Source: Mycobacteroides immunogenum (GTDB lineage: Bacteria > Actinomycetota > Actinomycetes > Mycobacteriales > Mycobacteriaceae). Taken from it: a DNA stretch of 64,000 nt. A program made the translations under genes and the position numbers. Under the pieces are notes generated by a model. It ran no database searches. It was not told the DNA's origin and saw only the letters and a list, made by a program, of their open reading frames with translations. This document shows, one piece after another, positions 5,695 to 44,067 of the stretch; positions within the stretch are counted from its first letter, which is position 1; each line of letters starts with the position of its first letter. The stretch is taken from NCBI RefSeq assembly GCF_001605725.1, contig NZ_CP011530.1:5394001-5458000 (forward strand), written 5' to 3'.

Positions 5695-7665
5695 TCACTG
5701 ATTCTCGGTTGATTCGACGACCGCGAGTACGGCGCCCAATTCCATTTGTTGGCCGATCCGAACCGGCAGCTCGGCGACCACGCCCGCGACGGGAGCATTG
5801 ATCTGGTGCTGCATCTTCATGGCCTCTAACCAGAGGATCGGCTGGCCGGCATCCACCTGATCGCCCGCGCCGACCGCGATCTGAACCACGGTGCCAGGCA
5901 TCGGAGCAAGCAATGATCCCGGTGCGGCAACACTGCTGGGATCGGGAAAGGGGCTCTCACGATGGAGCATCACCGCACCCAGCGCGGAATCGACACAGCG
6001 CAGGTCTCCGTAGCGTGCGACGGAGAAGGCATGGGCCACCCCTGCGACCTCCAAAACCACCTCCGCCGGTGCGGCAGCGACCACCCGTACGTCGTCACGG
6101 TCCACCGCGGCAAATCCGTCTCGGCCCGAGAGATAGCAGACCTCGACCGATTTCCCTGCCGCCGAGTAGCACTTGCGGTGCGGCTGGCTGGTGACATTTC
6201 GCCAACCCGTGGGCACTCCGGGCTGCACGGACAACACCTCCCGGTTCAGGGTGGCATCGGCCAGCGCGGCCGCCAAGGCCGCCAACGTGTGCGTCTCCGG
6301 ATCGGCGAGCGGAGCTGAAAGCGTCTCCAACCCGTGCCGATCAAAGAACGCGGTATCGGTGTCCCCCGCCAGGAAGGCCGGGTGCCGCAACACCCGCACC
6401 AACAGATCTCTGTTGGTGATCATTCCGTGGATTCGGGCGCGGTGCAGCGCCCGCGCGAGTGCTCGGGCCGCCGCCGGCCGGGTCGGGGCGAACCCGATCA
6501 CCTTCGCCAGCATCGGGTCGTAATACACACCGACGGCAGACCCGTCCACCACACCCGAATCGAGCCGGATGCCGTATGTAGAATTCTCGAATTCCGCTAC
6601 CACGCCGGGTATTTCGAATCGACTCAGGGTGCCGGTTTGCGGCTGCCACTGCGCGGCGGGGTCCTCCGCGTACAAGCGGACCTCGATCGCGTGGCCGCGG
6701 GCAGCCGGGGGTTCGGCAGCCAGTCGGCCGCCTTCGGCGATATCGATCTGCAGCGCCACCAGGTCCAATCCCGTCGTTGCCTCGGTGACGGGATGCTCGA
6801 CCTGCAGCCGTGTGTTCATCTCCAGAAAGTAGAACCGGCCAGTGTCATCCGACAGGAACTCGACCGTGCCCGCACCCACATAGTCGATGGCGCGGGCGGC
6901 CGTGCATGCCGCCTCAAACAGCTTGGCGCGCATGCCGTCGACACGCTCAACCAGAGGCGACGGGGCTTCCTCGACCACTTTCTGGTGGCGCCGCTGTATC
7001 GAGCATTCGCGTTCGCCTACCGCCCACACCGTTCCATACATATCGGCCATTACCTGAACCTCGATATGGCGACCGGTTTCCAGATACGGCTCACAAAACA
7101 CGGTGGCATCGCCGAAAGCCGATTGCGCCTCCGCACTTGCCAGCTCGATCTCACCCCGCAACGCATCCAGAGAGCGCACCACTCTCATGCCCCGGCCGCC
7201 ACCGCCGGCGGATGCCTTGATCAGAACCGGCAGGTCGGCTTCGGTGGCAGCATCCGGTGACAGTTCGGCAAGCACTGGCACCCCCGCCGCAGCCATCTGC
7301 CGCTTCGACTCGATCTTGGAACCCATGGTCTCGATGGCCTCGACCGGCGGACCCACCCAGGTGAGACCTGCGCCGATTACCGACCTCGCGAAGTCCGCGT
7401 TCTCAGATAGGAAGCCATAGCCGGGATGCACCGCATCCGCACCGGCCTGCAAAGCAGCGGCGACTACCCGATCGGTGCGCAGGTAGGTCTCCGCGGGCGT
7501 GTTGCCCGCGAGACGGACCCGCGCATCCGCCTCTTGCACGTACGGCGCGCCGGTATCGGCATCCGAATGCAATGCGATGGTGGATATTCCGAGATCTCGG
7601 CAGGAACGGAACACGCGCCGCGCGATCTCACCGCGGTTGGCAACCAGGAGGGCACGCACTGTCAT
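5695..7665 (-). CDS. acyl-CoA carboxylase alpha subunit (biotin carboxylase + biotin carrier)
   Basis: A 656-residue biotin-dependent carboxylase alpha chain. The N-terminal biotin carboxylase domain starts ALLVANRGEIARRVFRSCRD. It has the glycine-rich ATP loop KASAGGGGRGMRVV and the motifs HIEVQVMAD, ERECSIQRRHQKVVEEAPSP and EMNTRLQVEHPVTE. A BT-like linker follows, then a C-terminal carrier domain with the biotinylated lysine in EAMKMQ about 40 residues from the end. It carboxylates biotin with bicarbonate and ATP. Its start overlaps the stop of the carboxyltransferase gene by 4 bp, as expected for a stoichiometric complex. MCC, GCC or PCC specificity cannot be read from this subunit. Confidence 0.93.
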   Translation of the reverse strand: MTVRALLVANRGEIARRVFRSCRDLGISTIALHSDADTGAPYVQEADARVRLAGNTPAETYLRTDRVVAAALQAGADAVHPGYGFLSENADFARSVIGAGLTWVGPPVEAIETMGSKIESKRQMAAAGVPVLAELSPDAATEADLPVLIKASAGGGGRGMRVVRSLDALRGEIELASAEAQSAFGDATVFCEPYLETGRHIEVQVMADMYGTVWAVGERECSIQRRHQKVVEEAPSPLVERVDGMRAKLFEAACTAARAIDYVGAGTVEFLSDDTGRFYFLEMNTRLQVEHPVTEATTGLDLVALQIDIAEGGRLAAEPPAARGHAIEVRLYAEDPAAQWQPQTGTLSRFEIPGVVAEFENSTYGIRLDSGVVDGSAVGVYYDPMLAKVIGFAPTRPAAARALARALHRARIHGMITNRDLLVRVLRHPAFLAGDTDTAFFDRHGLETLSAPLADPETHTLAALAAALADATLNREVLSVQPGVPTGWRNVTSQPHRKCYSAAGKSVEVCYLSGRDGFAAVDRDDVRVVAAAPAEVVLEVAGVAHAFSVARYGDLRCVDSALGAVMLHRESPFPDPSSVAAPGSLLAPMPGTVVQIAVGAGDQVDAGQPILWLEAMKMQHQINAPVAGVVAELPVRIGQQMELGAVLAVVESTENQ

Positions 7666-9260
7666 GGCCGGAACACTCCGAATCGATCGGCCCCACGGAC
7701 GGGAGCATTGTGGATCGCCGATAGCGCGATACCGAGCACGGCGCGGGTGTCGCGGGGATCGATGACGGCATCGTCGTACAGCAGGCCCGAAATCACCAGA
7801 GCCTGTGACTCACTATCGATCTGCTGCTCTACCGCCGCTCGAACCGCCGCGTCGTGCGCCTCGTCATATGGCTTACCGGTTGCCTGGGCGGCCTGGCGCG
7901 CGACGATCGAGAGCACCCCGGCGAGCTGTTGCCCGCCCATCACCGCGGTACGCGAATTCGGCCAATCGAACAAGAAACGGGGATCGTAGGCGCGGCCACA
8001 CATTCCGTAGTTGCCTGCGCCGTAGGATGCACCCATCACGACAGTGATATGCGGGACAGTCGAATTCGAGACGGCATTGATCATCATCGCGCCGTGCTTG
8101 ATCATGCCGCGCTGCTCATAATCCTTGCCCACCATGTAACCGGTGGTGTTCTGCAGAAACAACAGCGGCGTATCACTTTGATTGCTCAACTGGATGAATT
8201 GCGTTGCCTTTTGGGCGTCCTCGTTGAACAGAACCCCCCGTGCGTTGGCCAGGATTCCGATGGGATACCCGTTCACACGTGCCCAGCCGGTAACAAGGCT
8301 GGTCCCGTAGAGCGGCTTGAACTCGTCGAACTCCGAGCCATCGACCAGGCGCGCAATCACCTCGCGAGGATCGAAGGGCTGCTTGGGATCGGAGGGGATA
8401 AGTCCGAGAAGCTCTTCGGGATCATGGACCGGAGGCGGCGCGGTGGCCGACGGCGGGGGGCCCAGCTTGCGCCAGTTGAGCCTGGACACAATCTGGCGCC
8501 CGAGTCGCAAGGCATCTACCTCGTCCACCGCGTAGTAATCCGCGAGCCCAGATGTCCTGGCGTGCATATCGGCGCCACCCAGGGTTTCATCATCGGATTC
8601 CTCGCCCGTCGCCATCTTCACCAGCGGCGGGCCAGCGAGGAACACCTTCGATTGTTCCTTCACCATGACGACGTAATCCGACATACCGGGCACATAGGCA
8701 CCGCCCGCGGTGGCATTGCCGGTCACTATCGAGATCGTCGGGATACCGGCGGCGGACATCCGGGTCATATCCCGGAACGAGCGCCCGCCGGGCACGAAGA
8801 AATCCTTCTGTCCCGGCAGATCACCACCACCCGATTCCACGATCTGAATCAGCGGCATCCGATTTTCAAAGGCAATATCCATGGCCCGCAGACCTTTACG
8901 GAGGCTGTACAGATTCATGGTGCCGCCCTTGACGGTTGGGTCGTTGGCGCCGATAACGCACTCCACGCCGCAGACCACACCGATACCGGTGATCTGACTC
9001 CCACCGACGTGGAATCCACTGCCCCACCCGGCAAGTGAACTCAATTCCAGAAAAGCCGAATCCTCGTCAATGAGTAGCTCGATACGTTCCCGCGCCAACA
9101 TCCTGCCGCGCTTGCGGTGGCGCTCGATGTACTTTTCGCCACCGCCGCCCACCGCCTTGTCATGCTCGGCCCGGACGATGGCGAGTTGTGCCAGCATCGC
9201 CTCCCGATTGATGCGGTAAGCGTCCGATGAGGTGTCCACCGCCGTCGCCAGCACACTCAT
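7662..9260 (-). CDS. acyl-CoA carboxylase beta subunit (carboxyltransferase)
   Basis: A 532-residue carboxyltransferase of the methylcrotonoyl/geranoyl/propionyl-CoA carboxylase beta family. The N-domain has the acyl-CoA oxyanion segment NATAGGAYVPGMSDYVVMV. The C-domain has GASYGAGNYGMCGRAYDPRF, the counterpart oxyanion site. The sequence GGGEKYIERHRKRGRMLARE near the start is typical of AccD1/MCC-beta proteins. It transfers CO2 from carboxybiotin to an acyl-CoA. It lies 64 bp downstream of the SDR gene and overlaps the alpha subunit gene by 4 bp. The neighbouring TetR and SDR genes resemble the atu rather than the liu arrangement. Confidence 0.9.
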   Translation of the reverse strand: MSVLATAVDTSSDAYRINREAMLAQLAIVRAEHDKAVGGGGEKYIERHRKRGRMLARERIELLIDEDSAFLELSSLAGWGSGFHVGGSQITGIGVVCGVECVIGANDPTVKGGTMNLYSLRKGLRAMDIAFENRMPLIQIVESGGGDLPGQKDFFVPGGRSFRDMTRMSAAGIPTISIVTGNATAGGAYVPGMSDYVVMVKEQSKVFLAGPPLVKMATGEESDDETLGGADMHARTSGLADYYAVDEVDALRLGRQIVSRLNWRKLGPPPSATAPPPVHDPEELLGLIPSDPKQPFDPREVIARLVDGSEFDEFKPLYGTSLVTGWARVNGYPIGILANARGVLFNEDAQKATQFIQLSNQSDTPLLFLQNTTGYMVGKDYEQRGMIKHGAMMINAVSNSTVPHITVVMGASYGAGNYGMCGRAYDPRFLFDWPNSRTAVMGGQQLAGVLSIVARQAAQATGKPYDEAHDAAVRAAVEQQIDSESQALVISGLLYDDAVIDPRDTRAVLGIALSAIHNAPVRGADRFGVFRP

Positions 9261-9324
9261 GCGTCATGCCCCTTCGATTGCCCTGATATGCGCGCGCACC
9301 ACAGTGGATCGCACCCCATGACGG

Positions 9325-10185
9325 TCATTTCCGTTCCTCACTGGGTAAGCCGGCCATGGCGCCCATCGCCGGTGTCGGAAAGTTGCTCGAGAAGTTGTCG
9401 CGGCCGCCATCCATCGTGAGCACGCAACCGGTGAAGAAACCCGCGACATCCGCCGCCATGTAGGTGACGAAGTTGGCCCACTCCCATTCGGTACCCACTC
9501 GGGTGAGCGGCTGGCTCTGTTCCACGATCGCTCGGTACTGGGCCGGGTACTTGGTGTTGAAAACCTCCGTACCCATCGTCCCGGGCGCCAAGGCACACAA
9601 GGTGATTCCGTAGCGAGCCCATTCGATCGAAAGCGACCGCGTCATGGATTCCACGGCGGCGCGCGCCGCTCCGGTATGGGTCATCAACGGAAATCCGTGA
9701 TGCGGTGACAACGTCACGCTGAGAATCCGGCCCGCTCCCCGCGGGATCATTGCCTTGGTGGCGGCCGCATGAGTCATGTGCCAGGTACCGAGCACATTCA
9801 ATTCGATGACCGTGCGATACCCCTTCGGGGTGATGTTCTCGGCTGGGCAGAGAAACTGACCGCCGGCGTTGTTCAGCAGAACATCAACGCGGCCATATTC
9901 TTCCAACACACCGTCGAAGAACTCGTCGACCGCGTCCGGGTCGCGAATGTCCAGCGGTCGCGCGTCCGCTCGGCCGCCAGCAGCTCGAATCATCTCGGCC
10001 GTGGCCTCGATCGGGTCGGCTCGCCGCCCGCAACCCACAACCGTCGCACCGGCGCGTGCCATCTCCAGTGCCGCCGCTCGCCCCAGTCCACTGCCGCTCC
10101 CGGACACGACGCACACCTTTCCCGCCAACAGATCCGGCACCAGGACGGAGCGCGGCGGCCCGGATTGACCATCCTGAACGATCAT
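9325..10185 (-). CDS. short-chain dehydrogenase/reductase (SDR)
   Basis: A 286-residue classical SDR. Cofactor motif VVSGSGSGLGRAAALEMARA is near residue 30, NNAG at about 106-109 and GRILSVTLSPHHG at the Ser position. The usual YxxxK is replaced by HTGAARAAVESM, so the catalytic Tyr is not where expected. This resembles 2,4-dienoyl-CoA-reductase-like and peroxisomal trans-2-enoyl reductase SDRs, so it may be a reductase rather than an alcohol dehydrogenase. It is first in the carboxylase operon and divergent from the TetR gene. Confidence 0.8.
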   Translation of the reverse strand: MIVQDGQSGPPRSVLVPDLLAGKVCVVSGSGSGLGRAAALEMARAGATVVGCGRRADPIEATAEMIRAAGGRADARPLDIRDPDAVDEFFDGVLEEYGRVDVLLNNAGGQFLCPAENITPKGYRTVIELNVLGTWHMTHAAATKAMIPRGAGRILSVTLSPHHGFPLMTHTGAARAAVESMTRSLSIEWARYGITLCALAPGTMGTEVFNTKYPAQYRAIVEQSQPLTRVGTEWEWANFVTYMAADVAGFFTGCVLTMDGGRDNFSSNFPTPAMGAMAGLPSEERK

Positions 10186-10209
10186 GCAAGGAAGATTGCA
10201 CGATCATTC
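10176..10209. promoter_or_regulatory. imperfect palindrome over the SDR start, probable TetR operator
   Basis: Inverted repeat with 13-bp arms, 11 of 13 paired: GAACGATCATGCA (10176-10188) and TGCACGATCATTC (10197-10209), 8-bp spacer. It overlaps the SDR start codon and precedes the divergent TetR gene. Inferred operator for the carboxylase operon. Confidence 0.5.
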
Positions 10210-10241
10210 AAACAGTGTCAACACCGTGTCATACTCATCGA

Positions 10242-10904
10242 GTGAACCCGTCCGCCGATATCCGCCGGAAGTTCCGCACACCCGACGAGCCCGAGCCGCT
10301 ACGAGGCGCGGACGCCTCCCGGGAGCGCTTACTGCAGGCGACCCATGAGTTGCTCATCGAGACCGGCGGGGCCGAACCATCCGTCAGCCAGATCTGCGCG
10401 CGGGCCGGGATGCAGGCCGGGATGGTCAGCTACTGTTTTGGCGGCAAGCGCCAGCTGTTGAATGCCCTGTTGTACCGGTCAACCGACGACGTGCTGGAAG
10501 AACTGCGCAATCTCGCCGCCTCCGACCTGTCACCGACGGAAAAGTTGCGCAAGCATGTCCGCGGCATGATCGCCAACTTTGTGCGATACCCGTACGCACA
10601 ACACATCAGCGAGATACTGGCGGCCACTGAGCCCGAAACACGGCCCGTCACAGAACGTTTCGCGGCGCCCACGCTCGACTTCTACCGAGATCTCGTCGCA
10701 GAGGGGGTCACCGCCGGCGAATTTCGCGCCGACGTCGACTCCAACCTGTTGTTCTTCACAACGGTGGGCATGTGCGAATTCCTGTTCGCCGCCAAGAGCT
10801 GGTTGCCGCTCGCGGGAGAGCAGCTGGACGACCAGTTGCTCGAACGATTCGCCGAGCATTGCGCCGGGGTACTGCTCAACGGGATCGCGGGCACAGGCAC
10901 CTAG
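10242..10904 (+). CDS. TetR/AcrR family regulator of the carboxylase operon
   Basis: A 220-residue TetR protein if started at GTG 10242. The frame extends upstream to 10056, but that would run through the SDR gene on the other strand. The HTH covers about residues 24-70 (LLQATHELLIETGGAEPSVS, QICARAGMQAGMVSYCFGGK). The C-terminal domain is large and presumably binds an acyl-CoA or related ligand. It is divergent from the SDR-accD-accA-fadE-echA operon with a palindrome between them. By analogy with AtuR it probably represses that operon. Confidence 0.8.
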   Translation: MNPSADIRRKFRTPDEPEPLRGADASRERLLQATHELLIETGGAEPSVSQICARAGMQAGMVSYCFGGKRQLLNALLYRSTDDVLEELRNLAASDLSPTEKLRKHVRGMIANFVRYPYAQHISEILAATEPETRPVTERFAAPTLDFYRDLVAEGVTAGEFRADVDSNLLFFTTVGMCEFLFAAKSWLPLAGEQLDDQLLERFAEHCAGVLLNGIAGTGT

Positions 10905-10950
10905 AGACACCAATCTGGAATAGATCCAAATTAATGCTGTTGTACCTGAC

Positions 10951-26862: not shown

Positions 26863-27801
26863 GTGATGACTGGCGAGGCGAGTACGGGCGCACCCGGCAC
26901 ACAGATCGCGCTGGCGCTGGGCGCCGGCGGGGCACGCGGCTATGCACATATCGGCGTGATTCAGGAGCTGCACGAGCGCGGCTTTGAGATCTCCGGCATT
27001 TCCGGATCATCCATGGGCGCGTTGGTAGGGGGCCTGGAGGCCGCCGGGGCTCTCGACGAATTTGCCTCGTGGGCAACATCTCTGACTCAACGCGCGGTGC
27101 TCAGACTCTTGGACCCTACCTGGACCAGCCCCGGATTCTTCCGCGCGGAGAAGATTCTTGACGTAGTGCGCGAGCTACTCGGCGATGTCGCGATAGAAGA
27201 CCTTCCGATCCCATTCACGGCCGTTGCGACAGATTTGATCGCCGGCAAGTCGGTGTGGCTGCAGAGTGGCTCATTGGCCTCCGCCATTCGAGCATCCATC
27301 GCGATTCCCGGAATGATCTCACCGCATGTTCTCAACGGACGGGTGCTGGCAGATGGCGGAGTTCTGGATCTACCGGCCGTCGCACCCCTGGCCGGGGTGC
27401 ACGCGGAACTACGGGTGGCGGTGACCCTCAGCGGAGGCGATGAACGGCGCGCTCCCGCGCCGCCATCGGAGCCAGAGCCACGCGAGCCTCGTGTGACAAC
27501 GGAGTGGCTCAACAGGCTGATGCGGAGCACCTCGGCGCTGTTCTCAACCGATGAAACAGAGACAACCGGGCAACCAGACCCGGCCGCGAAGCTGACGAGC
27601 TTCGAGGTGATGAACCGCACCATCGAGGTCATGCAGTCGCAACTTGCCCGCATGCAGCTCGCCGCGCACCCGCCGGATGTCCTCATCGAAGTCCCGCGCA
27701 GTGTCAGCCGCAGCCTCGACTTTCACCGCGCCACCGAAGTGATTGAGGTCGGCCGTCGTTGCGCGGCTGAGGCTCTCGATTCCTATGCGAACACCAACTA
27801 G
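26863..27801 (+). CDS. patatin-like phospholipase (RssA/NTE type)
   Basis: A 312-residue patatin-fold hydrolase. The oxyanion-hole glycine motif GAGGARGYAHIGV is at residues 20-32, the nucleophile serine is in GISGSSMGALVGG, and the catalytic Asp is in ADGGVLDLPAV. No signal peptide. Expected activity is serine lipase or phospholipase; the substrate is unknown. The start is GTG 26863 followed by ATG 26866. A long palindrome just after its stop belongs to the next gene. Confidence 0.85.
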   Translation: MMTGEASTGAPGTQIALALGAGGARGYAHIGVIQELHERGFEISGISGSSMGALVGGLEAAGALDEFASWATSLTQRAVLRLLDPTWTSPGFFRAEKILDVVRELLGDVAIEDLPIPFTAVATDLIAGKSVWLQSGSLASAIRASIAIPGMISPHVLNGRVLADGGVLDLPAVAPLAGVHAELRVAVTLSGGDERRAPAPPSEPEPREPRVTTEWLNRLMRSTSALFSTDETETTGQPDPAAKLTSFEVMNRTIEVMQSQLARMQLAAHPPDVLIEVPRSVSRSLDFHRATEVIEVGRRCAAEALDSYANTN

Positions 27802-32540: not shown

Positions 32541-34187
32541 ATGATGCACAGTGCATTCATGACTACTCTGCCCACGGCGGCACTGCAGGTGGCAGAGCTA
32601 TCCGCGCTGCCCGATGGCGCGCCCTACGCCACGAAAGCAGGGGGCGTCGATATCGTTCTCGTCCGCCGGGGTGACGATGTCTCGGCGCTGTACGGGCGTT
32701 GCGCACACCGTGGCGCGTTGATGTCCGACGGCCACCTCGACGGCGATCTTCTCGTCTGCGGAGTGCACGGTTGGCGCTACGAGGTCGACACGGGTGTCTC
32801 GCCGGTCAATCCCGCGGTGACATTGACCCGGTTCCCCGCCTGGGTCACCAATGGCTCTGTGTACGTGGATGAGTCGGCCGTGTCGACCTTCGCGAAGGCG
32901 AATCCTGTGTCCTATGCGGACGACGGCTATCAAGGCCGCTGGATCAAGCCCACCAACACCCCCGAAGAACCCTTCGTCACGCAGATCCACGACCTGGCCT
33001 CGCACGGGCTGGACAAGGTCGGACACCACGGCCCGATGTCCGCGATGGGAGTTCCACGCGACCAGTTGCCCTCGTGGGATTCCATTCAGGTGATCACCGG
33101 TCAGCTGGCCCGGCTGCCGCTGCTGGACAACGAGCCGGTGGACACGCGGACAGTGATCGGTCCGCGTGCCCAGCGACCGCTCACCCTGGACATCCCGCTC
33201 TTTGTCAGCGATATGAGTTTCGGCGCGCTCTCGCAAGAAGCCAAGGTCGCGCTGGCCGCGGGAGCCGAGCTCGCCGGGACGGGGATCTGTTCGGGCGAGG
33301 GAGGCATGCTCCCGGAGGAGCAACAACATAATTCACGATACTTCTACGAGCTGGCCTCGGCCCGATTCGGGTGGAGCTTCGAGCACCTCAAGAAGGTGCA
33401 GGCCTTCCACTTCAAGGGCGGGCAGGGCGCCAAGACCGGTACCGGCGGGCACCTGCCGGGCAACAAGGTGATCGGAAAGATCGCGGAGGTCCGGGGCCTC
33501 GCCCCGGGAACGCCGGCCATTTCGCCGGCCCGGTTTCCCGACTGGACATCCCTTGACCAGTTCCGCGACTTCGCGGAGCAGGTCCGTGCGGCCTCTGGTG
33601 GAATACCCGTCGGCTACAAGATGAGCGCACAGCACGTCGAACGCGATATCGATGCCGCGCTCACGATTGGTGTCGACTACATCATCCTCGATGGCCGCGG
33701 TGGCGGTACCGGAGCGGCGCCAATCCTGTTTCGCGACAACATCTCCGTCCCGACCATCCCGGCATTGGCGCGCGCCCGAAGGCATCTGGACCACTCCGAC
33801 GCACGAGACGTGACCCTGGCCGTCACCGGCGGCATTCGCACCGCCGCGGACATGGTCAAGGCGCTCGCGCTGGGCGCCGACGCCATCGGGCTGTCCAATG
33901 CCGCGCTGCAGGCAATCGGATGTGTCGGCATGCGCGCCTGCAACACCAACACCTGCCCCGTCGGCATCGCCACGCAGGACCCCCAGCTGCGGGACCGGTT
34001 ACCCGTCGAGCTGGCCGCGACGCGCTTGCAACGGTTTCTGGAGTCCACCGTCGAGCTGATGACCATACTGGCCAGGGCATGCGGACATCATCGCCTCGGC
34101 GACCTTGGGCTCGACGACCTCGTCACTTTCGACCGCGACTTCGCCTATCTCAGCGCAGTCCCCTACGCAGGAGCGATACCACTGTGA
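32541..34187 (+). CDS. fusion: Rieske [2Fe-2S] domain + FMN-dependent glutamate synthase domain
   Basis: About 548 residues. Residues 5-110 form a Rieske domain with GRCAHRG and CGVHGW supplying Cys/His pairs (C54/H56 and C73/H76). The remainder is the glutamate-synthase FMN barrel (LFVSDMSFGALSQEAKVALA, GICSGEGGMLPEEQ, ILDGRGGGTGAAP). It includes the [3Fe-4S] ligands in C-x5-C-x4-C (GMRACNTNTCPVG). There is no glutaminase domain, so it is not a complete glutamate synthase. The start is chosen as ATG 32541, after the palindrome; 32523 and 32559 are alternatives. It overlaps the next gene by 4 bp (GTGA). Confidence 0.85.
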   Translation: MMHSAFMTTLPTAALQVAELSALPDGAPYATKAGGVDIVLVRRGDDVSALYGRCAHRGALMSDGHLDGDLLVCGVHGWRYEVDTGVSPVNPAVTLTRFPAWVTNGSVYVDESAVSTFAKANPVSYADDGYQGRWIKPTNTPEEPFVTQIHDLASHGLDKVGHHGPMSAMGVPRDQLPSWDSIQVITGQLARLPLLDNEPVDTRTVIGPRAQRPLTLDIPLFVSDMSFGALSQEAKVALAAGAELAGTGICSGEGGMLPEEQQHNSRYFYELASARFGWSFEHLKKVQAFHFKGGQGAKTGTGGHLPGNKVIGKIAEVRGLAPGTPAISPARFPDWTSLDQFRDFAEQVRAASGGIPVGYKMSAQHVERDIDAALTIGVDYIILDGRGGGTGAAPILFRDNISVPTIPALARARRHLDHSDARDVTLAVTGGIRTAADMVKALALGADAIGLSNAALQAIGCVGMRACNTNTCPVGIATQDPQLRDRLPVELAATRLQRFLESTVELMTILARACGHHRLGDLGLDDLVTFDRDFAYLSAVPYAGAIPL

Positions 34188-36127
34188 GTGATCAAGAACT
34201 GGTCTGGCACAAGGCACTCGATCACGATGCCCTCGATGAGGGCCAGGTGACAGTCTGCCCGGTGGGATTGAAGTCGGTGGCGCTGACAAAACTGCACGGT
34301 CAATTCGGCGCCATCGACAACCGCTGTCCGCACCAAGGCGGCCCGCTCGGACAGGGCACCCTGGAGAACGACAAAATTCGTTGTCCCTGGCATGGATTCG
34401 ACTTCGACCCGTTCACCGGCGAGGCAGCGGGCGGGCCTGACTTCGATGTCCCGACTTATCCCGTCGAGGTGCGGGCCGACGGCGTGTATGTGGGCACGGC
34501 ACCTCCAGCACCCCATGTCCGCACGGTCAGCGATGTGCTCATCGAGACCATGACCAACTGGGGTGTCGATACGGTCTTCGGTATGGTCGGGCACTCCAAT
34601 CTCGGTGTCGCCGAGGCCATGCATCGCGCCGAAAAAGACGGAAAGTTGCGGTACTTCGGCATCCGCCACGAGGGTGCCGCGGCGTTCGCGGCCTCCGCCT
34701 ACGGAAAACTGACCGGACGTCCCGCCGCATGCTTCGGTATCGCCGGGCCCGGCTCCACGAACCTGTTGACGGGGCTGTACGACGCGAAGGCCGATCGCGC
34801 ACCCGTACTTGCCATCTCCGGCAACGTGGACTCCTCGGTGGCCGGCAAGGGCGCCTTCCAGGACATCGACCTACTGGCCGCCTTCTCCGACGTCTCCGTC
34901 TACTCGGCGATGGTCCGGGCGGGCTCCGACCACGCCGAGCTGATGACGATGGCGCTCAAACACGCGATCTTGGAGCGTGGTGTCGGCCATCTGGTGCTCC
35001 CGGATGAGGTGCAAGTGCTCCCCAGCCCGGGCAATCCTGCCTCCGGGCCGCAGGGCCGGATGCCGGACCTGCGGGTGGGCCCGCCTGCGGCGGCGCTCGC
35101 GGAGGCGCTGGATCTCATCGAATCTGCCACGCGCCCAGTGATTGTGGTGGGTGCCGGTGCGAAGTTCGACATGCCTGCGGTGGTCGCACTTGCCGAGCGG
35201 CTGAACGCCCCGATCCTCACCACGTTCAAAGCGAAGGGCCAGGTTTCCGAACGCCATCCGCTGGCCGGCGGGGTGCTGGGCCGCTCGGGGACACCTGTCG
35301 CATCGTGGATGATGAACAAGGCCGATCTACTGTTGGTGTTCGGCGCCTCGTTCTCCAATCACACCGGCATCTCGCCGTACAAGGCGACGGTCCAGGTCGA
35401 TACCGATCCATTGGCGCTCGGCCGGTTCCGCCCCGTCGCGGTCCCGATCCTCGGCGATGTGGGGGTGACAGCCTTGGCACTGTCGGACGGACTCGGCACA
35501 GGCCCAGCCGTGACCGACCAGCGCCCCGAACTCGCCGAGCGCTGGACGGTGTGGCGAGCGGAGAAGGCCCGCCGGGCCGCGGCGTCGGCGCACGGGCGCG
35601 TGCCCGCTGCCGCCGTCTTCCATGAACTCAACGACCTGGTGCCCGAAAACGCGGTGCTGACAGTCGATGTGGGCAACCACGCCTACTCGTTCGGCCGCTA
35701 CTTCGAGCCCACCGCGCAATCAGTGCTCATGTCCGGCTACCTGGGCTCGATAGGATTCGGGTTCCCCGCCGCCATGGGCGCATGGGCGGCGGCCCCGGAC
35801 CGGCCGATCGTCGCCGTCACCGGAGATGGCGGATTCGGTCAGTATCTCGCCGACTTCACCACCGCGGTGAAGTACAACATGAACATCACCCACATCCTGC
35901 TCAACAACGGCGAGCTGGCCAAGATCAGCGAGGAGCAGCGCAGCGCCGAGTACGCGGTGTGGCAGACCTCCCTGCACAATCCCGATTTCGCGGCGTTCGC
36001 ACGAGACTGCGGGGCGTACGGCAAGCGCGTCACTGATGCCACTGAATTGCGTTCGGTCATCGCTGAAGCTCTCAGCCATCCGGGCCCGGCACTGGTGGAG
36101 ATCCTCACCGATCCCCGTTCCCACTAG
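34184..36127 (+). CDS. fusion: Rieske [2Fe-2S] domain + ThDP-dependent pyruvate-oxidase-like enzyme
   Basis: 647 residues starting at GTG 34184; the frame is open upstream, but homology begins here and the start overlaps the previous stop. Residues 5-105 are a Rieske ferredoxin domain with NRCPHQGGPLG (C48, H50) and RCPWHGFDF (C67, H70). From about 113 a full ThDP enzyme follows: activating Glu163 in GIRHEGAAAFAA, the central domain, then VTGDGGFGQYLADF ... ILLNNG. Covalent attachment of a Rieske cluster to a pyruvate-oxidase-type enzyme suggests electrons leave the ThDP site through Fe-S. It is co-translated with the Rieske-GltS fusion. The substrate is unknown. Confidence 0.85.
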   Translation: MSDQELVWHKALDHDALDEGQVTVCPVGLKSVALTKLHGQFGAIDNRCPHQGGPLGQGTLENDKIRCPWHGFDFDPFTGEAAGGPDFDVPTYPVEVRADGVYVGTAPPAPHVRTVSDVLIETMTNWGVDTVFGMVGHSNLGVAEAMHRAEKDGKLRYFGIRHEGAAAFAASAYGKLTGRPAACFGIAGPGSTNLLTGLYDAKADRAPVLAISGNVDSSVAGKGAFQDIDLLAAFSDVSVYSAMVRAGSDHAELMTMALKHAILERGVGHLVLPDEVQVLPSPGNPASGPQGRMPDLRVGPPAAALAEALDLIESATRPVIVVGAGAKFDMPAVVALAERLNAPILTTFKAKGQVSERHPLAGGVLGRSGTPVASWMMNKADLLLVFGASFSNHTGISPYKATVQVDTDPLALGRFRPVAVPILGDVGVTALALSDGLGTGPAVTDQRPELAERWTVWRAEKARRAAASAHGRVPAAAVFHELNDLVPENAVLTVDVGNHAYSFGRYFEPTAQSVLMSGYLGSIGFGFPAAMGAWAAAPDRPIVAVTGDGGFGQYLADFTTAVKYNMNITHILLNNGELAKISEEQRSAEYAVWQTSLHNPDFAAFARDCGAYGKRVTDATELRSVIAEALSHPGPALVEILTDPRSH

Positions 36128-36212: not shown

Positions 36213-36228
36213 TCAAACATGTGTTCGA
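36213..36228 (+). promoter_or_regulatory. LexA (SOS) box-like site at the DUF222/HNH gene start
   Basis: TCAAAC-ATGT-GTTCGA matches the mycobacterial LexA consensus TCGAAC-N4-GTTCGA with one mismatch, and overlaps the GTG start codon at 36221. SOS control of 13E12-family genes is known in M. tuberculosis. Here it is inferred from the motif. Confidence 0.6.
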
Positions 36229-37558
36229 TTCGCTGACCGATGGAGACCTGATCGAGGTGATCACGGCGGCGCATCGTGCCGAAGCGCAGGCGTGCGCCCG
36301 CAGATTGGGCGCCATCGGCGTGCTTGTCGACCGGTACGCCGATCTGGATAAGCCTGATGAACGTGACCATCACCCGTTGGATCGCTGGGATCGGGTCGCT
36401 GCGGAGATCGCGGCGGCTCAAGGCATCACGCAGGCGCTGGCCTCCAGCCAGATGCGCTACGCACAGGTTCTGCGGCACCGTCTTCGAGCGGTCGCCGAAC
36501 GTTTCGCCACCGGCGATCTGGACTTTCGCACCGTCGCGCTGATCATCAATCGCACCGAGCTTCTCGAAGACGACGCCGTGGTCATGCGGGTGGACGCCGC
36601 CATCGTTCAAGCCCTGCCGCGCTGGGCGCGATGGTCACGCAAACGGATCGCGGCAGCACTCGATGCCCTGGTGCTTCGCTTCGATCAAGACGCCGTCCGG
36701 CGCAACAGATCCGCCACCGAAGGTCGGCATGTGGAGATTCGCCCTCTCGGCAACGGAGAACCGGTTGCCGAGATCTGGGGCACTCTGCAGGCCACCCACG
36801 CCGTAGCGCTGGACAAACATCTCGACCTCTTAGCCGACACCGTGTGTCCCGCAGATCCACGGACCAAGGCCCAGCGCCGCGCGGATGCTCTCGGGGCACT
36901 GACCAGCGGGCTTACTCAGATGCGCTGCAGCTGCGAACGTCCCGAATGCGCCGGTCGCGATATTGCCGACGTCTCGGTGGTGGTCAATGTGGTCATCAAT
37001 CAGTCCTCTCTAGACGACGAGGATGACCTTCCCGCTTACCTCCCGAGTTTCGGCGTATTGGCAGCCGAGCAAGCCCGTTTCGCCGCCGTGCACGCGCGCA
37101 GCCGCAGACTCACCGATTCGGTGACCAACGGATACCGCCCGTCCAGTGGGCTTGCCGCTTTTGTGCGTGCGCGTGACCAGCTGTGCCGATTCCCGGGTTG
37201 TGACGCGGCCGCCGATCGCACGGATCTCGACCACACCGTGCCCTGGGGCGCCAGCGGACCCACCACCGGCAACAATCTGAAGGCGTTGTGCCGCAAGCAT
37301 CATCTACTCAAGACGTTCGGCGGCTGGCGCGAGATCCAGGAGCCCGATGGGACCGTGATCTGGAAGGCGCCGACCGGACATACCTACACCACCAGCCCCG
37401 GCGGTGGGCTCCTTTTCCCCACCCTTACCCGCCAACGTACTCGAAAGCAGGAACGCCAGAACCGGCGCCAGCATGAGCGAAACCTCAATCACCAGAATCG
37501 GTTACAACGGGAAGCGGCGCTCGCTACCATCGCCGCCAAGGACCCGCCGCCCTTCTAG
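36221..37558 (+). CDS. DUF222 / HNH endonuclease protein (13E12 family)
   Basis: 445 residues. The N-terminal 300 are the DUF222 region (LTDGDLIEVITAAHRAEAQA). The C-terminal HNH nuclease has CRFPGCDAAADRTDLDHTVP, then NNLKALCRKHH, with a Cys pair for zinc and the His-Asn-His metal site. This is the family of the M. tuberculosis REP13E12 repeats, whose copies are dispersed and serve as phage integration sites. The protein is intact here. Its role is unknown: a DNA nuclease, possibly damage-induced. I see no flanking repeats indicating a recent insertion. Confidence 0.85.
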   Translation: MFDSLTDGDLIEVITAAHRAEAQACARRLGAIGVLVDRYADLDKPDERDHHPLDRWDRVAAEIAAAQGITQALASSQMRYAQVLRHRLRAVAERFATGDLDFRTVALIINRTELLEDDAVVMRVDAAIVQALPRWARWSRKRIAAALDALVLRFDQDAVRRNRSATEGRHVEIRPLGNGEPVAEIWGTLQATHAVALDKHLDLLADTVCPADPRTKAQRRADALGALTSGLTQMRCSCERPECAGRDIADVSVVVNVVINQSSLDDEDDLPAYLPSFGVLAAEQARFAAVHARSRRLTDSVTNGYRPSSGLAAFVRARDQLCRFPGCDAAADRTDLDHTVPWGASGPTTGNNLKALCRKHHLLKTFGGWREIQEPDGTVIWKAPTGHTYTTSPGGGLLFPTLTRQRTRKQERQNRRQHERNLNHQNRLQREAALATIAAKDPPPF

Positions 37559-43221: not shown

Positions 43222-44067
43222 ATGACAACGGCGTTCGTGCTCTCCGGTGGAGCCAGCCTGGGCTCGATCCAGGTGGGCATGCTGCTCGCCATGGCCGAGG
43301 CCGGCATCACGCCCGACCTGATCGTCGGAACGTCGGTCGGGGCCCTCAACGGCGGCTGGATCTCCTCACGGCCCGACGTTGACGGCATCAACGGCCTGGC
43401 CGACCTGTGGCGGTCCCTCTCGCGTAAGGACGTATTTCCCACCAATCTTTCGGTGGGATTCCTTGGCTTCATCGGCCAGCGGCAAAGCCTGGTATCGGAC
43501 TCGGGGCTGCGACGTCTCCTCAAGGAACACTTACTGTTTCGCAGGCTTGAAGACGCACCGATCCCTCTGCATGTGGTCGCGACCGACGTACTCACCGGCA
43601 AGGACGTCCTGCTGTCCAGCGGGAATCCGATCGACGCCATCGCCGCCAGTGCCGCGGTCCCCGCGGTGTTGCCGCCGGTACGGATCGTCGGGCGCGACCT
43701 CATGGACGGCGGCGTGGTGAACAACACCCCGCTCTCGCACGCCGTGGCACTCGGCGCCACCGAGATCTGGGTGCTGCCCACCGGATATGCCTGTGCTCTC
43801 ACCGAAACACCCAGGGGTGCAGTGGCTATGGCTTTGCATGCGATGACTCTGGCCATCAACCAGCGCCTGGTCGCCGATGTGAGTCGATTCGAGGGTAGCG
43901 TCGATCTACGAGTGGTGCCGGGGCTATGCCCGGTCCGTACCTCACCGGCAGATTTCTCGCACGCCGACGAACTCATCGGCCGCGCACGCGAACAGACCCG
44001 CAGATGGCTACTCATGCCGAGATTCAAGATCAATCAGGCCGATCTGCTGGAACACCACCACAACTGA
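43222..44067 (+). CDS. patatin-like phospholipase family protein
   Basis: 281 residues, complete. Glycine motif LSGGASLGSIQVGML at the N-terminus, nucleophile serine in IVGTSVGALNGG, and catalytic Asp in LMDGGVVNNTPLS. Its organisation as a short cytoplasmic patatin resembles bacterial NTE-type lipases. It follows the two-HTH TetR gene by 9 bp on the same strand, so the two are probably co-transcribed and may be connected to the divergent monooxygenase unit. The substrate is unknown. Confidence 0.85.
   Translation: MTTAFVLSGGASLGSIQVGMLLAMAEAGITPDLIVGTSVGALNGGWISSRPDVDGINGLADLWRSLSRKDVFPTNLSVGFLGFIGQRQSLVSDSGLRRLLKEHLLFRRLEDAPIPLHVVATDVLTGKDVLLSSGNPIDAIAASAAVPAVLPPVRIVGRDLMDGGVVNNTPLSHAVALGATEIWVLPTGYACALTETPRGAVAMALHAMTLAINQRLVADVSRFEGSVDLRVVPGLCPVRTSPADFSHADELIGRAREQTRRWLLMPRFKINQADLLEHHHN

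Follow-up and report, generated by a model that had tools for sequence, protein, structure and literature searches.

A recurrent gene pair of Rieske-fused glutamate-synthase-type and thiamine-diphosphate proteins in Mycobacteroides immunogenum that may carry out consecutive oxidations

We analyzed a 64,000-nucleotide stretch of Mycobacteroides immunogenum DNA (contig NZ_CP011530.1, forward-strand positions 5,394,001 to 5,458,000; hereafter the window), from a host genome consisting of a single 5.57-Mb contig, and focused on a pair of plus-strand genes at window positions 32541..36127. The first encodes P0001, a Rieske domain fused to the synthase core of glutamate synthase (GltS fusion), and the second encodes P0002, a Rieske domain fused to a thiamine diphosphate (ThDP) enzyme of the pyruvate oxidase type (ThDP fusion). 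The pair looks like a conserved redox module that recurs across many bacterial phyla. We favor, at a probability of just under 40%, a reading in which the two proteins are iron-sulfur-wired dehydrogenases that perform consecutive oxidations, from amino acid to 2-oxo acid and on to acid and CO2, with the electrons passing to the Rieske domains.

The 542-residue P0001 is assigned by domain matches and orthologs to positions 32559..34187 of the plus strand. Its start codon is ambiguous between ATG 32541 and ATG 32559, and ortholog alignments begin at the latter; the preliminary description of this DNA had the two genes right, but its start at 32541 is only one of two that are possible. Pfam placed a Rieske domain at residues 10-86 (E 1.9e-14; 32586..32816), with the ligands C48-x-H50 and C67-x2-H70, and a Glu_synthase barrel at residues 199-509 (E 3.1e-90; 33153..34085), which includes the [3Fe-4S] cysteines C455/C461/C466 (33921..33956). 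The only other Pfam matches were to generic flavin mononucleotide (FMN) barrels, with none to a glutaminase or GXGXG domain. Both the sequence and the predicted fold therefore correspond to the FMN/[3Fe-4S] synthase barrel of GOGAT (the cofactors being predicted), and the N-terminal glutaminase domain of GOGAT is lacking, as is its C-terminal GXGXG domain, the chain stopping at residue 542 after a Glu_synthase match that ends at 509. This composition, a Rieske domain on a GltS barrel devoid of glutaminase, is the one first proposed from the letters. The structure model was of middling quality (predicted local distance difference test, pLDDT, 74; predicted template modeling score 0.74), and the closest named relative, from Mycobacteroides franklinii, is 87% identical.

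Conservation of the GltS fusion was counted over 87 distinct cores after collapsing duplicates, including the query and its copy in the window. All four Rieske ligands are kept in 79 of these; among the eight exceptions, four are truncated by a contig end short of the Rieske region, three carry CDGSH domains instead, and one (L249; loci and genomes carry L and G numbers) lacks the last histidine. Each of the three [3Fe-4S] cysteines is present in 85/87 and the core residues K286, Q289, and K292 in 87/87. Assignment as a hydroxy-acid dehydrogenase, raised by a Pfam FMN_dh match (E 1.3e-8), was rejected since what we take to be the catalytic histidine motif of that family has no counterpart in the corresponding segment DGRGGGTGAAP. 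The universal retention of K286, Q289, and K292 together with the missing histidine motif suggests that P0001 would act on an amino or imino acid.

P0002 (647 residues, GTG start, 34184..36127, plus strand) showed Pfam matches to a Rieske domain at residues 8-93 (E 2.8e-15; 34205..34462) and to all three ThDP domains (N, M, and C), which together form a pyruvate-oxidase-type enzyme at residues 114-640 (34523..36103). The Rieske ligands are C48/H50 and C67/H70 and the ThDP-activating glutamate is E163, so that the claim of a Rieske domain on a complete ThDP enzyme stands; the C-x-H and C-x2-H ligands identify the N-terminal domains of both fusions as Rieske [2Fe-2S] domains. The structure model reached a pLDDT of 89 and the closest named relative, again from M. 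franklinii, is 92% identical. Over 113 distinct cores, with duplicates collapsed as above, all four Rieske ligands were found in 112, the exception being a C-terminal fragment, and the activating glutamate in 112. Across both fusions, the conservation of the ligands is far beyond chance.

In its predicted fold and its sequence, P0002 is closest to PoxB, to the pyruvate:quinone oxidoreductase of C. glutamicum, and to pyruvate oxidase, and it possesses the three ThDP domains and activating glutamate of that group; its best NCBIfam pyruvate oxidase score, 379.7 bits, lies below the equivalog cut-off of 742. F225-Q226 and E584-Q585, which we take to be pyruvate-oxidase motifs, are present in 111/113 distinct cores. 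Lys580 (35921..35923, plus strand, by alignment to PoxB) is likewise lysine in 111/113, the other two being gaps within the 116-row alignment, and occupies the position of a PoxB phenylalanine in a loop that presumably lies at the interface of ThDP and flavin adenine dinucleotide (FAD). The H137-S138-N139 triplet is invariant among aligned ThDP fusions, and the window's own PoxB (P0003) has D-S-L there. A bound FAD is probable, as the middle domain and predicted fold match FAD enzymes, a fold common also to enzymes with another nucleotide or none at this site. The P0002 chain ends at a point aligned with PoxB residue 531-532 of 572, and the C-terminal membrane/quinone tail is missing; with this exit gone, electrons may leave P0002 through its Rieske domain.

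The two genes overlap by four nucleotides in a GTGA start/stop sequence (34184..34187, plus strand). Among 25 loci in which both genes are present, the window included, 20 show the same 4-nt overlap when the start nearest the expected one is chosen at each locus; four others had values of 2, 2, 29, and -1, and no value was obtained for L091. Two of the loci with the overlap, L070 and L071, are non-mycobacterial. The overlap had earlier been read as implying equal production of the proteins, which asks too much of four nucleotides; its presence implies translational coupling, not equal output. At L091 (G014:C12, ~7054-10929), the GltS ortholog is broken across two frames near residue 445 and the upstream frame stays open into the ThDP gene; a sequencing error and a true mutation are both possible there.

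The distribution of the fusions was surveyed in 248 genomes of the genus, including the window's own, which holds both proteins, at E <= 1e-150 for the ThDP fusion and E <= 1e-120 for the GltS fusion. The former was found in 30 genomes and the latter in 29, all of them within the 30 (Fisher p 5e-37, a figure that ignores kinship); the only genome of the 30 without the GltS fusion, G534, carries just a divergent ThDP fusion. Two GltS copies are present in each of G403, G530, and G554, and the second copy in G530 (L146) has no ThDP fusion in its neighborhood. In a phylum sample of 296 genomes, the ThDP fusion was found in eight genomes besides the window's own and the GltS fusion (61-64% identity) in six. 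Four genomes hold both, adjacent in G357 and G388 and apart in G155 and G272, and at the thresholds used four of the eight carry the ThDP fusion alone (G183, G189, G199, and G341).

In order to follow the pair beyond the phylum, species genomes in GTDB were scanned with an alignment of ThDP fusions; both words that the scan used lay in the ThDP part, and the Rieske part supplied none. The best 80 of at least 517 confirmed ThDP-fusion stretches formed a multi-phylum set that spans approximately 15 phyla by record titles and consists mostly of metagenome-assembled genomes, with a few isolates such as Leptothoe kymatousa, Xenococcus sp. PCC 7305, and Mycolicibacterium vaccae; most of the distant loci come from incomplete assemblies. 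A GltS ortholog lies in the fetched flank of the ThDP fusion in 38 of the 80 loci (three of the 38 mycobacterial), a 39th row (L214, 33% identity) having been left out. Among these 38, the GltS gene is truncated short of the Rieske region in four (L153, L155, L181, and L217) and has CDGSH in place of Rieske in two (L203 and L209). The adjacent genes share a strand in 37/38 pairs, with the GltS gene preceding the ThDP gene in 31 of those 37, and when only loci with flanks of 2.5 kb or more on each side are counted, the ortholog stands beside the ThDP fusion in 26 of 48. The co-occurrence of the two fusions, which the preliminary description had put forward for checking, is therefore borne out both in the genus (29/30 genomes) and by adjacency in many phyla (38/80).

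The other 42 genomes of the multi-phylum set yielded 25 GltS matches at E <= 1e-60, and 23 of them are orthologs (58-67% identity); the matches in G598 and G617 are of a 39-44% type and were not counted. Of these 23 orthologs away from the ThDP fusion, the match reaches back to the Rieske region in 19, CDGSH is present in one (G589), and the N-terminal part is unmatched in the remaining three. In G616 (L241), the GltS gene adjoins a second, cut ThDP fusion, and on short contigs genes scored as non-adjacent may nevertheless be adjacent. Both proteins are thus present, adjacent or apart, in 61/80 genomes. Their protein distances also correlate: r is 0.61 over 49 non-mycobacterial pairs, 0.73 for the adjacent (n=30) and 0.49 for the non-adjacent (n=19) pairs among them, with 0/2000 permutations reaching the observed value, and 0.93 for 25 mycobacterial pairs, in which two loci are entered twice.

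Exchange of the N-terminal domains provides a further clue to their role. Tandem CDGSH domains replace Rieske in three GltS orthologs that are 65-67% identical in the matched core, at L209:672-2291 (61 bp before the ThDP fusion), L203:7972-9501 (beside it), and L252:5681-7228 (not adjacent to it). The ThDP fusion of L203 itself bears tandem CDGSH ahead of its Rieske domain. A more distant GltS group (L131-L134, 44-49% identity) was typed by Pfam in two members, L132:7987-9480 (minus strand) and L134:7816-9258, in which the GltS core has an N-terminal rubredoxin-like domain; the rubredoxin hits are weak (18.9 and 20.4 bits against a cut-off of 23), and that of L134 is backed by two C-x2-C motifs. 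A CDGSH-Fer4_19-CDGSH string is added ahead of Rieske-ThDP at L072:8032-10680 and L074:7994-10765 (both minus strand), in genomes without the GltS fusion, and exists as a stand-alone gene adjoining the ThDP fusion at L162:5061-5804 (minus strand). Judged from these architectures, the N-terminal domains appear to be exchangeable carriers of single electrons, which makes a role in electron relay credible. A bridge from Rieske to Rieske is not required, since CDGSH-GltS stands beside Rieske-ThDP at L209 and L203. The two Rieske domains of the window are 27% identical over 89 residues, which does not support a recent origin by a single duplication.

In the consecutive-oxidation scheme, P0001 would interconvert an amino (imino) acid and a 2-oxo acid on its FMN/[3Fe-4S] core and exchange electrons with its own Rieske cluster. 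P0002 would convert the 2-oxo acid to an acid (or acyl phosphate) and CO2 with ThDP and probably FAD and hand the electrons on to the Rieske cluster that it carries, and both clusters would then discharge to a further acceptor. The direction is suggested by redox potentials: Rieske ferredoxins lie at about -150 mV, CDGSH and rubredoxin near 0, and the GltS FMN at about -240 mV. As the carriers are relatively high-potential, electrons leaving the flavin would be favored. Among the schemes considered, this is the most economical. What the analysis shows is the domain composition, the conservation of the ligands, the coupling and co-occurrence of the genes, and the exchange of carrier domains; the cofactors, direction, substrates, and any physical contact between the proteins are deduced. 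Several points weigh against it. The potentials are general background values and those of Rieske clusters vary; the residues conserved in the GltS core are those of a synthase whose normal direction is reductive; and the middling P0001 model (pLDDT 74) gives no cluster distances. The GltS fusion occurs alone, at the thresholds used, in two of the six phylum genomes that have it (G209 and G102), and a GltS ortholog was not detected in 19 of the 80 multi-phylum ThDP-fusion genomes, which are mostly metagenome assemblies and include six cyanobacteria. Host kinship could also yield part of the distance correlations. Common occurrence of each fusion alone in unrelated contexts had been named beforehand as evidence against a complex: the two are together in nearly all genomes of the genus that have either, and solitary cases, seen in the genus, phylum, and multi-phylum samples, speak against a strict pair.

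A broader and somewhat unlikely version would make the pair part of a widespread and unnamed pathway independent of nicotinamide adenine dinucleotide, in which GltS-type deamination of an amino acid is followed by ThDP-dependent decarboxylation of its 2-oxo acid, both enzymes being connected by high-potential iron-sulfur plugs that can replace one another (Rieske, CDGSH, rubredoxin-like, and 4Fe-4S strings), with a DUF5996-like third part in some lineages.

It is somewhat unlikely that P0001 and P0002 are instead independent enzymes of one stress or nutrient regulon, each using its Rieske domain as an adaptor to general Rieske or ferredoxin reductases with no traffic of electrons or substrate between them. 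Such independence would fit the occurrence of each fusion alone in part of the samples, the GltS orthologs located away from the examined ThDP fusion in 23/42 genomes, and the low identity of the two Rieske domains. However, the near-perfect co-occurrence in the genus, the overlapping genes, and the gene order conserved across phyla are hard to reconcile with it. No pyridine-nucleotide ferredoxin reductase was found among the typed recurrent neighbor families, which also speaks against a general reductase; one of these families, present in 7/80 multi-phylum loci, is an FMN reductase family. Ten genes next to lone fusions of the phylum sample were typed as well, and the redox gene followed up among them encodes an FMN reductase.

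The scheme proposed in the preliminary description, in which 2-oxo acid oxidation on ThDP sends electrons through both Rieske clusters to the GltS FMN and so drives the reductive amination of a 2-oxo acid to an amino acid, with free ammonia or some other amine as the nitrogen source, appears unlikely. Pairing and coupling of the genes and the GltS-type lysines and glutamine kept in every distinct core are in its favor, and its net reaction is thermodynamically possible. Nevertheless, by the potentials above Rieske, CDGSH, and rubredoxin would be poor donors to the GltS flavin, each fusion is also found singly, and the CDGSH-GltS genes beside ThDP fusions make Rieske-Rieske contact dispensable. 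The relay role that it assigned to the Rieske domains remains credible from co-occurrence, adjacency, and carrier exchange, but the direction from ThDP to FMN is a hypothesis only. A function of the Rieske domains as sensors or structural modules has no direct support and is very improbable, given the strict conservation of the ligands, the replacement of Rieske by other one-electron carriers, and the addition of CDGSH and 4Fe-4S strings.

The pair differs from each known system that it resembles. The nearest Rieske-free relatives of the GltS core in the order and phylum samples are MgsC and related GltS-only proteins, mostly at 38-45% core identity. In the two such loci that were typed, L143 and L137, an amidotransferase gene adjoins the Rieske-free GltS gene, and L143 also has GXGXG and glutamine synthetase families; we take loci of this type to be similar to MgsABC (N-methylglutamate synthase). 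P0001 differs from MgsC in its N-terminal Rieske domain and in having no amidotransferase or GXGXG neighbor, the typed neighbors in the window being PoxB, a LuxR regulator, the ThDP fusion, and DUF222/HNH, with neither MgsA nor MgsB among them. It also keeps the GltB-type lysine (K286) missing from four aligned MgsC-like sequences. The MgsC-like proteins at L143:7957-9276 and L144:8088-9386 lack the [3Fe-4S] cysteines, and those of L137 and L140 have them. Relative to GltB and ferredoxin-dependent GltS, P0001 matches the synthase barrel only, at ~30% identity, without glutaminase or GXGXG and with Rieske added. P0002 differs from PoxB, pyruvate:quinone oxidoreductase, and pyruvate oxidase by its N-terminal Rieske domain, the absence of the PoxB membrane tail, and the lysine in place of the PoxB loop phenylalanine. 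For both Rieske domains, the top PDB matches include soluble ferredoxins of the Rieske type from dioxygenases (NDO ferredoxin and CarAc); in P0001 and P0002, the domains are fused to redox enzymes other than oxygenases. Finally, 2-oxoacid:ferredoxin oxidoreductase resembles P0002 in coupling ThDP-dependent 2-oxo acid oxidation to an iron-sulfur cluster, whereas the domains of P0002 are arranged as in pyruvate oxidase and its cluster is of the Rieske type instead of a low-potential [4Fe-4S] cluster.

In the window, an AAA_16/LuxR regulator gene (P0004, 29699..32491, plus strand) lies upstream, separated by 67 bp from the 32559 start, and is a possible regulator of the pair; LuxR-AAA genes also stand close to certain other mycobacterial pairs. 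The ordinary PoxB-type pyruvate dehydrogenase gene P0003 (27907..29646, plus strand) possibly shares its transcription unit. The DUF222/HNH gene lies directly downstream (36221-37558), and two patatin-like phospholipase genes lie one on each side of the region (26863-27801 and 43222-44067). LuxR/AAA regulators were rejected as a fixed part of the module, as their two blast families occur in only 8 and 6 of 34 neighborhoods (the window and 33 loci, of which 23 are mycobacterial). DUF5996 was likewise rejected as an obligatory third part for the window's genome, in which Pfam finds none. By a custom profile, for which part of the counted loci had served as seeds, DUF5996-like genes are present in 22/80 multi-phylum loci, 5/25 mycobacterial loci (26 rows, less L079, which belongs to another family and holds neither gene), 4/13 phylum loci, and 5/20 loci around non-adjacent GltS genes. 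Pfam confirmed DUF5996 in L170 (5126-5962), L196 (9578-10555), L092, and L086 (10606-11946, minus strand) and returned nothing for L191, L067, L150, and L176. Near other ThDP fusions, we also observed a protein that joins a Rieske domain to a ferric-reductase-like membrane domain (L185:2371-3414 and L201:4075-5106, both minus strand, and L206:10386-11492), a eukaryotic-type carbonic anhydrase (L193:8057-8881; blast family in 4/80 loci), and a Na+/H+ exchanger (L170:2207-3499; blast family in 6/80 loci).

A literature search by combinations of terms for the two Rieske fusions found no paper on either, and none was found on DUF5996; among its matches were a paper on 2-oxoacid:ferredoxin oxidoreductases and an expression paper that mentions the two terms in separate places. 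A homolog of P0001 in M. smegmatis MC2 155 (76% identity) is named ferredoxin-dependent glutamate synthase, and from names and gene order, rather than the sequences of the locus tags, the pair there is probably MSMEG_5594/5593. In excerpts of PMC8866557, MSMEG_5593-5595 and a MarR gene are listed as downregulated when altRP is deleted, and also in the wild type in ZRM; if ZRM denotes zinc-replete medium, these genes would be relatively up in zinc-limited cells. Excerpts of other reports place MSMEG_5594 among glutamate synthases (PMC4881515) or contain one of MSMEG_5594/5593 in a proteomic table (PMC8281650, PMC8525676). In the parts available of these four sources (PMC8866557, PMC4881515, PMC8281650, PMC8525676), the proteins themselves are not the object of study.

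The probable pair appears in excerpts of M. smegmatis expression data under the labels 'glutamate synthase' and 'pyruvate dehydrogenase' (PMC4881515, PMC8866557), although the proteins of the window lack defining parts of both. If the modular-carrier reading is true, it would provide a function for two very conserved families on neither of which a study was found, and a testable case of flavin and ThDP enzymes being re-plugged to different electron acceptors.

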